From Myxococcales bacterium (GTDB lineage: Bacteria > Myxococcota > Myxococcia > Myxococcales > Myxococcaceae), in assembly GCA_016191815.1 (NCBI GenBank), contig JACPVI010000017.1, positions 1 to 32,888 of the forward strand: DNA of 32,888 bases. The letters run 5' to 3'. A program made the translations under genes and the position numbers. Of the stretch, positions 28,734 through 32,888 are shown in pieces. Positions within the stretch are counted from its first letter, which is position 1. Each line of letters opens with the position of its first letter. Under the pieces are notes generated by a model that ran no database searches, had not been told where the DNA came from, and worked only from the letters and a program-made list of their open reading frames with translations.

Positions 28734-28769
28734 CCGGGATCGATCACGTCACCAGGCCGGCCAGCGGTT

Positions 28770-29036
28770 TCACCCCTCTCGCTGCCGAAGCCGCGCGCCA
28801 GGCTTCGCTCGACAGTTGCCCGAATCGGTTCCAGCAGCCTCCGTGGGCTCGAAGCAGACCTCGCGCTGACCCACCCTGACGGCCTCGCTCTCCCACTCAT
28901 GCGCGTCGACGCTCCCAAAATACCGAAATACAGTTCGATCTTCCCACGCGCGAGCGCCACGCCCCCGTGCTACGGGCCAGTAGGCAGATACCCGCCCGCT
29001 CGCGCAACACGTGCGAGTGCGCCGCCCAGGAATCAT
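28770..29036 (-). CDS. possible small ORF coupled to the helicase gene
   Basis: This 88-residue frame starts at ATG 29036, overlapping the helicase TGA by 4 nt (ATGA). That arrangement suggests translational coupling. The first 30 residues are Arg-rich; the middle (W-E-D-R-T-V-F-R-Y-F, D-A-H-E-W-E-S-E-A-V-R-V) looks more protein-like. No family is recognised and long frames are common by chance in such GC-rich DNA. It may be a real third gene, a decayed 3' fragment, or non-coding. The rest of 28734-29032 shows no other structure. Confidence 0.25.
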   Translation of the reverse strand: MIPGRRTRTCCASGRVSAYWPVARGRGARAWEDRTVFRYFGSVDAHEWESEAVRVGQREVCFEPTEAAGTDSGNCRAKPGARLRQREG

Positions 29037-31243
29037 GAGGATCGTGGCGTCAAGTCGAGCTGCAGGCGCCTGAGATCCGTCGTCGCCACCTTGCGGTAGG
29101 CCGTTGCGCCGTCATCCTTCGCGAGATCGGCGCTGCTCTTGCCGAGCAGGACCCCGTGCCAGCGCATGCGCACGACAAGTTGGTGGAGGATACGTTCTTC
29201 GTACGTCGAGGCAACGAGCGGGAAGTACACGCGCAATGCACCATGAAGGACCCGTCCCGTCCGGTCGCCGCGACCCTCGCGCTGCTCGAGCTTTGCGGGG
29301 TTCCATTCGAGTTCGTAGTGAACGAGGTGCCGCGTGTAGGTCTGCAGGTCGATCCCCTCGGCACCGACGTTGCTGGCGATGAGGAGCCAAGGAAAGAGCG
29401 GACTCCGGAAGCGATCTGCATTCCCGTCCCGATCCGCGTCGCCGCCCGTGTACCCCGCGACAATCTCGGACGAAAACAAGTCGCGAATCCGCTCCCCAGC
29501 CAGGCGGAGCGCGCGCTTCCGGGCGCTGATCGAGTATTCGTCATCGTCATCGACGCTTTGAAACTTCTTGACCTCGCGGGCGTAGGCATCGAGGGTCTTC
29601 TTGACATGGGCCCTCACCCGGTCGGCATACGCACGACGCGGGTTGCCGAGCATCGCGACGAGGTGTGGGTGGGCCGCGACCTTCTTTGCGAGATCGTCGA
29701 GCCTATTCGCTAGCGCGGCGTGGTGCAGCCTCCTCGTCCCCTTCCCCTGGACATCGTCGGCCTTGGCGCGAACGAGTTTGGCCAGTTGCTTGAGCGTCTC
29801 CTTGGAGCGGCGGACGAAGGCCTCCCGATCGCCGATCTGCTGGGTGAAGACGGCAGCGGCGACGTCTGCCAGGGTCTCTTCGAGGACGTGCTGCGTCGCG
29901 CTGCGATGGAACAGGAAGACGATCGTCTTCCTGGGAAGGCCGAGATCACATTCAGCGTCGAGCATGGAGTCGATATCGGCGGACAGCGTCCTTTCGAACC
30001 ACGCGCGCAGTGCGGCCAGCTTCGGATGCTGACCTTTCGGGATGGCCAGCTCAAGCAGACGACCTGCCTTCGATGCCGCGAACTGCTCGAACGTGCTCAG
30101 GAACTGCCGAAGGGCACCCGGCGCGAAGAAATCCTCGGCAGCCCTCTCCGCGAGCGCGAGGCGCATCTCGAGGTAGTGGTTGAGGAACTCCGGTGAGGCC
30201 TTGATAGTCGAGGGCCGCACGCTGTCGAACTGAGCATCGGTCCACGCCCAGGGGCTCGGAATCGGCTCGGGGGTCCCGTCGGCAGCGAGCGAAAAGTAGC
30301 AGCGCCTTCCCCGACCTGTCTTGCTGCGAGCGACGAGTTTTGAAAGCAGACGCTCGGCGTCTCGCCGCTCTCGTGCGGACGGCATGGCAGCATCGCTCTT
30401 GCGGCAGGCGTCCGCCACCCGCTGGAGGAACCCTTCGAGCGTGGGGCAACGGAGGAGCTGCGCTCCAACGCTCTCGGCCTCCTGGCTTGCGACGACGTGG
30501 TCGAAGAGATGCCTCATGTCCGAGAGGCTGAGCTGGAACGGCGTCGCGGACAGGAGGAGCAACGGGGACGGGCTCTTCCGCCTCCTGACGCCATCCAAGT
30601 GCTTCAGCGCTTCCAACGCAGAGCGGTGATGGGCCTCGTCCACGATCACGGTGTCCCAGTGTGTGGTGAAGAGCCGGCGCGCCCGGTGGTTTCCGTGGAT
30701 TCGGCCGGGGCCGGCGGCGATGAGGTTCACGTTGACGATGTAGACGCCGGGCGCGAGATCCTTGCGTGTCCACTTCTTTGTCGTGCGGACCTTCCCACCG
30801 ACGAGCTGGGCCCGGGTCTGGATGTCGACGATGCGCTCGAAAGTCCTCTGGACGAAGGCCGCGCGCTTGCGGCGCGCCCACGCCGAGAGGTACTGGCGGA
30901 CGCCCTTCTCCTCGCTCCCCAACTCGTCCCGCCACTTCGAGACGAGGCCAGGAGGCACGAGGATGAGGATGTGCCGGGGCAGGCGGACCTTTCGCTGTCG
31001 GCGGCCGCCCTGTCGCGTGAGCTTTCCGCGCGCCAGGAGCAGCTCGGCTGTCCCAGCCAGGGCCTCCCAGGTCTTCCCCTTGCCTACTCCGTCGGCAAAG
31101 ACGGCCCCCACCTGTGTGTGGGCGGCTCGTTTCCCTGCCCGCGTGGTGAAGCGCACGAGGCGTCTTCGCGATCCGGTGAGTCGGCGAAGGGACCACTGTA
31201 CGGCGCGCCGTTGGTGCGTTTGGAGCTTCGCCCCCTTTCTCAC
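29033..31243 (-). CDS. SF2 (SNF2/RapA-like) helicase, partner of the PLD protein
   Basis: This 736-residue helicase has all the core motifs. Motif I is D-G-V-G-K-G-K-T (51-58), preceded by a Q-like motif L-Q-T-H-Q (7-11). L-V-P-P-G-L-V follows at ~95-101 (Ia), D-E-A-H (202-205, II), S-A-T-P-F (232-236, III), S-N-V-G-A-E-G-I-D-L-Q (624-634, V) and Q-R-E-G-R-G-D-R-T-G (654-663, VI). Between the two RecA lobes lie ~390 residues with long helical inserts. GTG 31243 overlaps the PLD stop (GTGA), so the pair is co-translated. Similar helicase-PLD pairs occur in defence islands (for example DISARM, where DrmD and DrmC play these parts), but the present PLD is larger, so an exact system is not assigned. 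No methylase gene lies within the window. Confidence 0.9.
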   Translation of the reverse strand: MRKGAKLQTHQRRAVQWSLRRLTGSRRRLVRFTTRAGKRAAHTQVGAVFADGVGKGKTWEALAGTAELLLARGKLTRQGGRRQRKVRLPRHILILVPPGLVSKWRDELGSEEKGVRQYLSAWARRKRAAFVQRTFERIVDIQTRAQLVGGKVRTTKKWTRKDLAPGVYIVNVNLIAAGPGRIHGNHRARRLFTTHWDTVIVDEAHHRSALEALKHLDGVRRRKSPSPLLLLSATPFQLSLSDMRHLFDHVVASQEAESVGAQLLRCPTLEGFLQRVADACRKSDAAMPSARERRDAERLLSKLVARSKTGRGRRCYFSLAADGTPEPIPSPWAWTDAQFDSVRPSTIKASPEFLNHYLEMRLALAERAAEDFFAPGALRQFLSTFEQFAASKAGRLLELAIPKGQHPKLAALRAWFERTLSADIDSMLDAECDLGLPRKTIVFLFHRSATQHVLEETLADVAAAVFTQQIGDREAFVRRSKETLKQLAKLVRAKADDVQGKGTRRLHHAALANRLDDLAKKVAAHPHLVAMLGNPRRAYADRVRAHVKKTLDAYAREVKKFQSVDDDDEYSISARKRALRLAGERIRDLFSSEIVAGYTGGDADRDGNADRFRSPLFPWLLIASNVGAEGIDLQTYTRHLVHYELEWNPAKLEQREGRGDRTGRVLHGALRVYFPLVASTYEERILHQLVVRMRWHGVLLGKSSADLAKDDGATAYRKVATTDLRRLQLDLTPRSS

Positions 31244-32888
31244 CGCCGGCCCCCCAGGAAGCGTCGGATCGTGGGGTACCAGTCCCACCTCGTCGCGAGC
31301 GCCGGCCACAGTTCCTCGAGCGACGCTCCTTCGGGCAGGCCGCGACGTAGCCGCACGACTAGCGCGGCGATGACGTCCAGCTCGGCCTGAAAGTCGGTCC
31401 GCGTCAGGTGCGCGAGCGGATCTTCTTCATCATCTTCCCGATCGCTGTTCTCGTCTGCTTCGCCCGACGGGGGTGTGGGCGAGGCCTTCGCAGGAGTACG
31501 CCCTTCGAGCTCGCCGAGGAGCGCCGCGAGCTCGCCGAGAGCGCCGGAGGCTCCCAGCACCGGCGCGACTACCGACGGGTTGACGAGAAAGGGCACCTGC
31601 GTTCTGCCAACGGTTTCCCAGAGCAAGAAAGGCCGTTCCAAGGGCAGCGCGATGCCGAGCGCTTCGGCCACGTCACGCGGCACCGTCACCTCCGTCTTGC
31701 CGTGCGTCGGGACGACGTACTTCTCGGACGACTTCCTGCCGACCCGGAGTCTGGCCGGCACAGGCCGCAGGACTTCAAGGACGATCTTACCGGCGCGCTC
31801 CCAGGCGTCCGAGATGTGGCCGGCCCCGACCGGGGGAGGACGCCGCTGCTTGGGTACTTCCTTCGGCTTGCCGTTCACGGGGCGAAACATGGTTGGCGTC
31901 AGGCTTCCGATTAGGGAGTCGGTCTGCTTCCTGTCGAGCGAATGCTCGAGCAGCACTTCGACGTTCCCGGACGCGGGCGTGCGGCTGAGCGCGGGCTCGG
32001 TGAGGTTCGCGCTGCCCACGTACAGCCGCCCCACGCCGGTCGAGTTCACGAAGAGGAGTGCCTTGGCATGGAGGTTGCCCGGCTTTTGCGCGCGGCTCAC
32101 GGCCTCCTCGGCGTCGTCGGTTGAGTCGTCGGTTTCAGGCGTCGGCGCGTAGTCGAATGTCTCAGCGCCTGCGAGCTTGCCGGCGGTACCCTTCGGGAAA
32201 TGCGTGTACACCCGAACCGAGTCCCTCGCCGTAGGCCAGAGGGCTCGAAGCTTGCTGATCAAGCGCAGATCGAGGCCGTCCTCTTCCTCCCGCACGCCAG
32301 CGTACAGCGGCGAGACGCAGTGAAGGTCCGCGACGGCGAATCCGCGCAACCGCTCCTTGAGTTGTGGGAGCAGCGGTCGTCGCATCGACGTCAGGAATGT
32401 GGCGTTCTCTCGTTCTCCCTTGGCGACGACACGCATCACCGAACGCGCCCGAGCGCTCATCTGTATCGACTTGCTAAGGACGAGGTCGGCCAGAAAGCTC
32501 CGGACGGCTTGAGGGAGCGGATCATCCACGTTGCCGCGATAGAACGACACGATCTCGAGGTTGGCGCCCAGTCCGCCCCGGGTGAGATTGCTCGAGCCGA
32601 CGCCCACGAGCACTCGCTGTCCTGCTGACAGCATGCAAACCTTCGGGTGAAAGGCGCCCACGACGCGGATGGAATGGATTTCGTAGGAGCCGGCGAACGG
32701 CACGCCTTCGTGCTCGGCGAGCCGTTCGGTGAACGCGCGCCCATCCACGACTTTGGCGGCGGTGTTTTCGGATCCACTTTCGGCGGCGAGAGAGATCCAG
32801 TTGCCGCGCGGCAACGCAGTCCTCTGGCCTCCGTAAGTCCGCCTGCGTCGTGGCGAAGGCGTCCTTCCGGAGGGCCAGAGGACTGGTG
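31240..32888 (-). CDS. PLD-like nuclease-type protein, N-terminus possibly outside window
   Basis: This phospholipase D-superfamily protein has two HKD-type half-sites. Counting from a possible TTG at 32814, they are F-H56-P-K58 with V-G-S-S-N76, and L-H249-A-K251 with V-G-S-A-N270. In nucleases of this fold (BfiI-type or NgoFVII-type) the two halves make one active site that cuts or binds DNA. The first site lacks the Asp of classical HKD enzymes, as in many nuclease members. A middle region and a C-terminal ~130-residue acidic-to-basic tail (E-D-D-E-E-D-P-L-A-H) follow. The frame stays open to the end of the window, so the real start may lie further upstream. The downstream helicase gene overlaps by 4 nt. 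The gene context supports a defence or DNA-processing role; this is inference. Confidence 0.85.
   Translation of the reverse strand, partial: PVLWPSGRTPSPRRRRTYGGQRTALPRGNWISLAAESGSENTAAKVVDGRAFTERLAEHEGVPFAGSYEIHSIRVVGAFHPKVCMLSAGQRVLVGVGSSNLTRGGLGANLEIVSFYRGNVDDPLPQAVRSFLADLVLSKSIQMSARARSVMRVVAKGERENATFLTSMRRPLLPQLKERLRGFAVADLHCVSPLYAGVREEEDGLDLRLISKLRALWPTARDSVRVYTHFPKGTAGKLAGAETFDYAPTPETDDSTDDAEEAVSRAQKPGNLHAKALLFVNSTGVGRLYVGSANLTEPALSRTPASGNVEVLLEHSLDRKQTDSLIGSLTPTMFRPVNGKPKEVPKQRRPPPVGAGHISDAWERAGKIVLEVLRPVPARLRVGRKSSEKYVVPTHGKTEVTVPRDVAEALGIALPLERPFLLWETVGRTQVPFLVNPSVVAPVLGASGALGELAALLGELEGRTPAKASPTPPSGEADENSDREDDEEDPLAHLTRTDFQAELDVIAALVVRLRRGLPEGASLEELWPALATRWDWYPTIRRFLGGRR

Follow-up and report, generated by a model that had tools for sequence, protein, structure and literature searches.

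A truncated PLD nuclease gene and a short SNF2 helicase gene at a contig end: probable remnant of a divergent Azaca-like module

The window analyzed here is an entire contig (C50, 32,888 nucleotides) of a Myxococcales bacterium whose assembly comprises 89 contigs, measures 6.77 Mb and is 98.8% complete. At its left edge, positions 1-190 appear, by eye, to contain the last part of a reading frame resembling an HNH endonuclease (IHHLRPFAHAGEATPDNLMLACKRHN). Its right end, which stops at position 32888, carries two overlapping minus-strand genes, one for a helicase and one for a PLD protein, followed by a repeat. The features of this region are as follows.

28734..29032, no strand: stretch 3' of zacC; the open reading frame list shows no further co-directional gene, the next gene being on the plus strand
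29033..31243, minus: zacC-like SNF2/SF2 helicase gene, 736 aa, a ZacC of the short clade that closes the operon
29261..29386, minus: helicase motifs V and VI, NVGAEGIDLQ ... QREGRGDR, residues ~620-661
30629..30640, minus: helicase motif II, DEAH, residues 202-205
31070..31093, minus: helicase motif I, DGVGKGKT, residues 51-58; key positions invariant across five relatives
31240..31243, minus: zacB/zacC start/stop overlap, GTGA, read from the sequence and resembling the overlaps in relatives L035, L036 and L037
31240..32751, minus: zacB-like PLD nuclease gene lacking its 5' end and retaining the codons from VVDGRAF on
31240..32814 and on to the edge, minus: PLD open reading frame, 524 aa from a TTG, open at the contig edge
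32005..32070, minus: HKD motif 2 (HAKALLFVNSTGVGRLYVGSAN), from a motif scan; core residues invariant in four relatives
32587..32649, minus: HKD motif 1 (HPKVCMLSAGQRVLVGVGSSN), from a motif scan; conserved in L035 and L036
32751..32888, no strand: terminus of a mobile element or repeat present in several copies (CTTYGGCGGYGGT...GATCCACTTTCGGCGG...), including a ~70-bp hairpin, where zacB and the assembly both break off

An earlier note, made from the sequence alone, had described a full-motif SF2/SNF2 helicase gene overlapping a PLD gene by 4 nt. Both points were confirmed: motifs I, II, III (SATP), V and VI are all present, and the GTGA overlap lies at 31243-31240 of the minus strand. Pfam likewise recognized SNF2-rel_dom (4.2e-10) and Helicase_C (1.7e-9) in the helicase, which spans 736 aa if counted from the overlapping GTG or 758 aa from an in-frame upstream GTG at 31309. 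The insert of ~390 residues that the same note had remarked upon corresponds to the interval between motifs III and V, which is long in the relatives as well. Its description of a two-HKD PLD protein of more than 520 residues holds for the two motifs, both of which read H-x-K...GS-x-N in a motif scan (Pfam PLDc_2, 3.6e-8), and for the 524-aa frame, but the upstream part of that frame is translated repeat. An AlphaFold2 model of this protein, built from four rows, reached a mean pLDDT of 35, too low to be informative. A locally lower GC content had been argued from two 60-mers; the counts given (33/60 and 46/60) are exact, but the 60-mers were hand-picked from a distribution with a mean of 41.5 and an sd of 3.4. 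We therefore used GC3, the better measure, in their place. GC3 is ~0.80-0.81 in both genes, whereas most other clear genes in the window reach 0.87-0.92, a difference that fits a horizontal origin of the pair. Elsewhere in the same genome (L015, contig C57, position 45229), an SNF2 helicase is fused to a C-terminal NO VEIN domain (PF13020); it is likely a separate defence gene.

Library scanning alone does not name the system to which these genes belong, since the PADLOC and NCBIfam matches are weak. For the window PLD protein the top PADLOC family was ZacB (58 bits, E 1.9e-16), followed by PDC-M27B and DrmC; canonical ZacB members score 332-572 bits. The helicase matched the DrmD, PDC-M27C and ZacC families of PADLOC at 56-67 bits, mostly through the motif V-VI region, and this stretch drives nearly all of its PADLOC and NCBIfam matches. 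The ZacC score was 56 bits, with the C-lobe alone matching well, compared to 814-1162 bits for canonical ZacC. Assignments to Dpd, BrxH and Hma were rejected as their scores were confined to the generic helicase C-lobe, with DpdE reaching 48 of the 500 bits needed and DpdK an E-value of 0.0098. Sequence searches of the PDB returned only the RapA, Rad26 and SMARCA helicase cores for the helicase, and nothing meaningful for the PLD protein. Viral contigs held no relative of the window helicase, an alignment query returning SF2-core matches only, and tblastn against plasmids gave only short PLD matches (Roseibium, Sinorhizobium, Sphingomonas, Miltoncostaea) with no adjoining annotated SNF2 gene.

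Relatives were sought in 195 genomes of the phylum and then, using a two-sequence alignment, in 85,000 species genomes. A full-length relative of the helicase was present in one of the 195 (genome G193, locus L034), and the larger scan recovered two close loci of full length, L035 from Planctomycetia and L036 from a deltaproteobacterium (genome G195), together with the remoter L037 (Goldiibacteriota); known relatives are thus three close and one remote. The helicases of L034, L035 and L036 share 33-35% identity with that of the window over their full length (E 1e-84 to 1e-95), the search of the phylum having given 37% for that of G193. In a ZacC tree these four helicases group with 100/100 support, separate from the canonical clade (also 100/100), and L037 is too distant to be placed firmly. 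The PLD proteins of the window and L035 are 33% identical over 475 aligned columns, and ZacB was also the top PADLOC family for the PLD proteins of L035 (73 bits), L036 (96 bits) and L037 (53 bits).

The earlier note had set conserved linkage of the two genes as a test, and such linkage was found, with a further gene in front. In L035, L036 and L037, three touching or overlapping genes encode proteins of ~400-437 aa, 550-671 aa (PLD) and 690-812 aa (helicase), and the order in intact operons is zacA (DUF6361-like), zacB (PLD) and zacC (SNF2), adjacent and with short overlaps. The first gene of L035 and L036 matches PADLOC ZacA (50 and 40 bits) and DUF6361, and in L037 a gene occupies the zacA position directly upstream of zacB. 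In G193, a zacA (41% identity to that of L036) is cut off by the start of contig C827, while contig C158 ends 84 bp upstream of the helicase; we infer that one missing zacB could join the two contig ends. Directly upstream of this zacA lies a gene for a SIR2-like protein (L057:1077-2381), a probable defence gene. These arrangements bear on whether the window pair is a PLD-helicase system of two genes only, like Mokosh or the PLD_Helicase type of PADLOC. Weak matches to PLD_Helicase and phospholipD_antiphage (32.6 and 63.9 bits) point that way, but they come from the generic helicase C-lobe alone, and a gene at the zacA position stands directly upstream in L035, L036 and L037, with the zacA contig end of G193 able to join zacC; we regard a two-gene system as very improbable. 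The window holds not a free-standing, compact two-gene system but two thirds of a divergent, Azaca-like three-gene module. The earlier note was right in proposing a PLD-helicase defence operon.

Azaca (ZacA-ZacB-ZacC; Millman et al. 2022, as cited in PMC10952713) is described as carrying a PLD domain (PMC10952713), with ZacC listed as an SF1/SF2 helicase (PMC12278908) and the mechanism listed as unknown (PMC12926258). The phylum of the window also has canonical Azaca, at L059 (ZacA 450, ZacB 572 and ZacC 1162 bits) and at L061 and L062. In profile-profile comparisons, the short clade was linked to canonical Azaca at 96% for ZacA (85 columns), 98% for ZacB (283 columns) and 98% for ZacC (85 columns). 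For the helicase, the C-lobe alone aligns with canonical ZacC, and that of the short clade is nearer to DrmD than to canonical ZacC (E 4.5e-27 versus 7e-13). Because the ZacC tie reflects general SF2 motifs V-VI and the C-lobe lies nearer to DrmD, the name Azaca derives from the gene set and from ZacA and ZacB, whose profiles link the two branches, and not from the helicase; we accordingly use the label Azaca-like. By homology, the window PLD protein classes as an Azaca ZacB, weakly in score. Taken together, these findings indicate that the pair quite probably represents zacB and zacC of a very divergent, well-supported short-helicase clade of Azaca-like zacA-zacB-zacC anti-phage modules, horizontally acquired and, in the window, probably broken.

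The break lies at the 5' end of zacB. The PLD gene had been thought merely cut by the window edge; instead, the sequence from 32751 onward is a repeat common to other contig ends. The 32751-32888 segment recurs at the ends of contigs C72, C63, C67 and C77, always oriented alike with respect to the end and with unrelated flanks, and a decayed internal copy lies within C68. Copies at contig ends with unrelated flanks typify a mobile element at which assemblers halt. The element end contains repeats (CTTCGGCGG...GATCCACTTTCGGCGG) next to the ~70-bp hairpin, which has opposite orientations in C50 and C72; multiple terminal repeats of the GATCCACTTT type are seen in IS21-family elements. A single end of the element was observed, with no transposase found and no plasmid match, and relatives share just short stretches of its sequence. 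Homology to ZacB starts exactly at boundary 32751, with VVDGRAF, whose first codon adjoins the repeat on its left. Since zacB stops precisely where the shared repeat begins, ~58 N-terminal codons are missing, as judged by comparison with L036. Translation of the truncated ZacB from the TTG inside the repeat could nevertheless occur, since the frame is open to the contig edge.

A zacA profile found no zacA, either in the window or elsewhere in the genome, and a DUF6361 search of that genome likewise gave no match. The same profile detected zacA in G193 (3e-54) and in the canonical Azaca genomes G077 (3e-8) and G123. Given the truncation of zacB by a mobile-element end together with the absence of zacA from the assembly, the window copy is probably a dead or dying, non-functional remnant, and since zacA is absent we file it as an incomplete Azaca-like remnant and not as an Azaca system. 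A gap in the assembly could nevertheless hide this gene. A broader version of this idea holds that the truncation itself is an assembly artefact and that the living genome has an intact zacB, a zacA in a contig gap and a functional system; contigs do end at repeats, and the position of zacA and zacC on two contig ends in G193 indicates that assemblers split such operons easily. The repeat, however, begins inside the zacB frame at the very point where homology ends, within a single contiguous contig, and zacA escaped a control-proven model in a nearly complete assembly. We therefore consider an artefact unlikely and retain the reading of a probable remnant.

We also considered that the window pair could belong to a DISARM locus, as drmC-drmD or a variant of it, whose drmA, drmB and methylase genes lie beyond the contig edge. 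The helicase matches DrmD at 67-70 bits, the short ZacC C-lobe is nearest to DrmD, and the module of G195 is located between drmMI and drmA-drmB. That locus (L036:28-22013 with L072 and L073; G195:C384:37210-63760) is class-1 DISARM, in the order drmD (531 bits), an MmeI-like drmMI (547 bits, split over several frames), zacA, zacB and zacC, followed 3' of zacC by an rve-integrase ORF, an ATPase-like ORF (by eye), drmA (965 bits), drmB (117 bits) and GmrSD; among the part of its ORFs that was scanned, no drmC was recognized. The presence of a genuine DrmD (531 bits) beside the module indicates that ZacC is not simply the DrmD of G195. Scores for the window proteins also fall far below the curated NCBIfam equivalog cut-offs (69.7 versus 610 for DrmD and 20.3 versus 133 for DrmC), no DISARM gene lies 3' of zacC in the window, and the operons of L035 and G193 stand without DISARM genes in the available bases. 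Neither DrmA nor DrmB (DUF1998) was found in the window, and the sole MZB/DUF1998 match of the genome is on contig C56, unlinked. Membership in DISARM is hence distinctly improbable and we reject it, and the doubt that the earlier note had voiced about it was justified; the connection it drew survives in an indirect form, through the intact module inside the DISARM locus of G195.

In G193 (L034:1187-6337), zacC is followed by a 270-aa gene, by PglW (1128 bits; NERD and two kinases) and by a PglX-like methylase (436 bits). Since no PglZ was found in this assembly (86% complete), the locus may be a PglW-PglX-Zac hybrid and not BREX type 2. On the short contig of L035, no other defence gene was recognized, its flanking ORFs lying outside the library scan. 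The association of the module with MmeI-like methylases in two of the three readable neighborhoods, a bare count, is suggestive. Tentatively, the short-helicase Azaca lineage may be a mobile effector cassette in methylation-based loci (class-1 DISARM in G195, PglW-PglX in G193) that shares an MmeI-like methylase for self-recognition and may do the work of DrmC in G195; we hold this to be possible but well short of probable. Literature term searches, in the portions of text they cover, returned no description of this lineage in DISARM and PglW/PglX neighborhoods.

In PLD/HKD proteins of this type, two HKD motifs together make up a nuclease, and proteins of the SNF2 family act as translocases on duplex DNA. 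On this basis, ZacC of an intact module would be expected to translocate on duplex DNA, with ZacA, the small subunit, acting alongside it as a recognition or regulatory part, and the paired HKD motifs of ZacB, forming one composite active site, would be brought onto invading DNA to cut it, conferring protection against phage. Self-DNA would presumably be marked by methylation where an MmeI-like methylase (DrmMI, PglX) adjoins the module. In the window, replacement of the first ~58 zacB codons by the mobile-element end, together with the lack of zacA, would leave the module dead or dying.

The window copy itself, most likely a remnant damaged by a transposon, carries little weight; it illustrates that a two-gene system at an edge may be a fragment. 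The wider short-helicase variant is of more interest. If the module recurs in DISARM and PglW/PglX loci, this would show exchange between nuclease-helicase cassettes of the Azaca type and systems guided by methylation, and the compact relatives (~1,700 aa in all) would be suited to working out Azaca function.

Among known systems, BREX type 2 (PglW, PglX) resembles the G193 locus, where zacC precedes the 270-aa gene, PglW and the PglX-like methylase, but PglZ was not detected there and nothing comparable stands beside the window pair. The PADLOC phage-defence candidate PDC-M27 likewise combines a PLD protein (M27B, 40 bits) with an SNF2 helicase (M27C, 57 bits), although these matches are partial and no better than those to ZacB and ZacC; in a literature term search, PDC-M27 and DUF6361 returned no paper, and the names ZacB and ZacC one unrelated paper only. 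Class-1 DISARM (DrmD, DrmMI, DrmA, DrmB, DrmC) shares the SNF2 helicase and PLD combination, has the helicase with the nearest C-lobe (DrmD) and has one relative embedded in it, but the DUF6361 subunit is no DISARM gene, the window lacks DrmA, DrmB and DrmM, and scores are far below cut-offs. In comparison with Azaca, the window copy lacks zacA and the 5' end of zacB, identity is very low (~25-30% in patches of ZacB, and the SF2 core only in ZacC), and the helicase measures 680-736 aa in the short clade versus 1070-1154 aa in canonical systems of the same phylum. The three gene types (DUF6361-like, PLD and SNF2/SF2 helicase), their order and their overlaps are nonetheless the same in the relatives as in Azaca.
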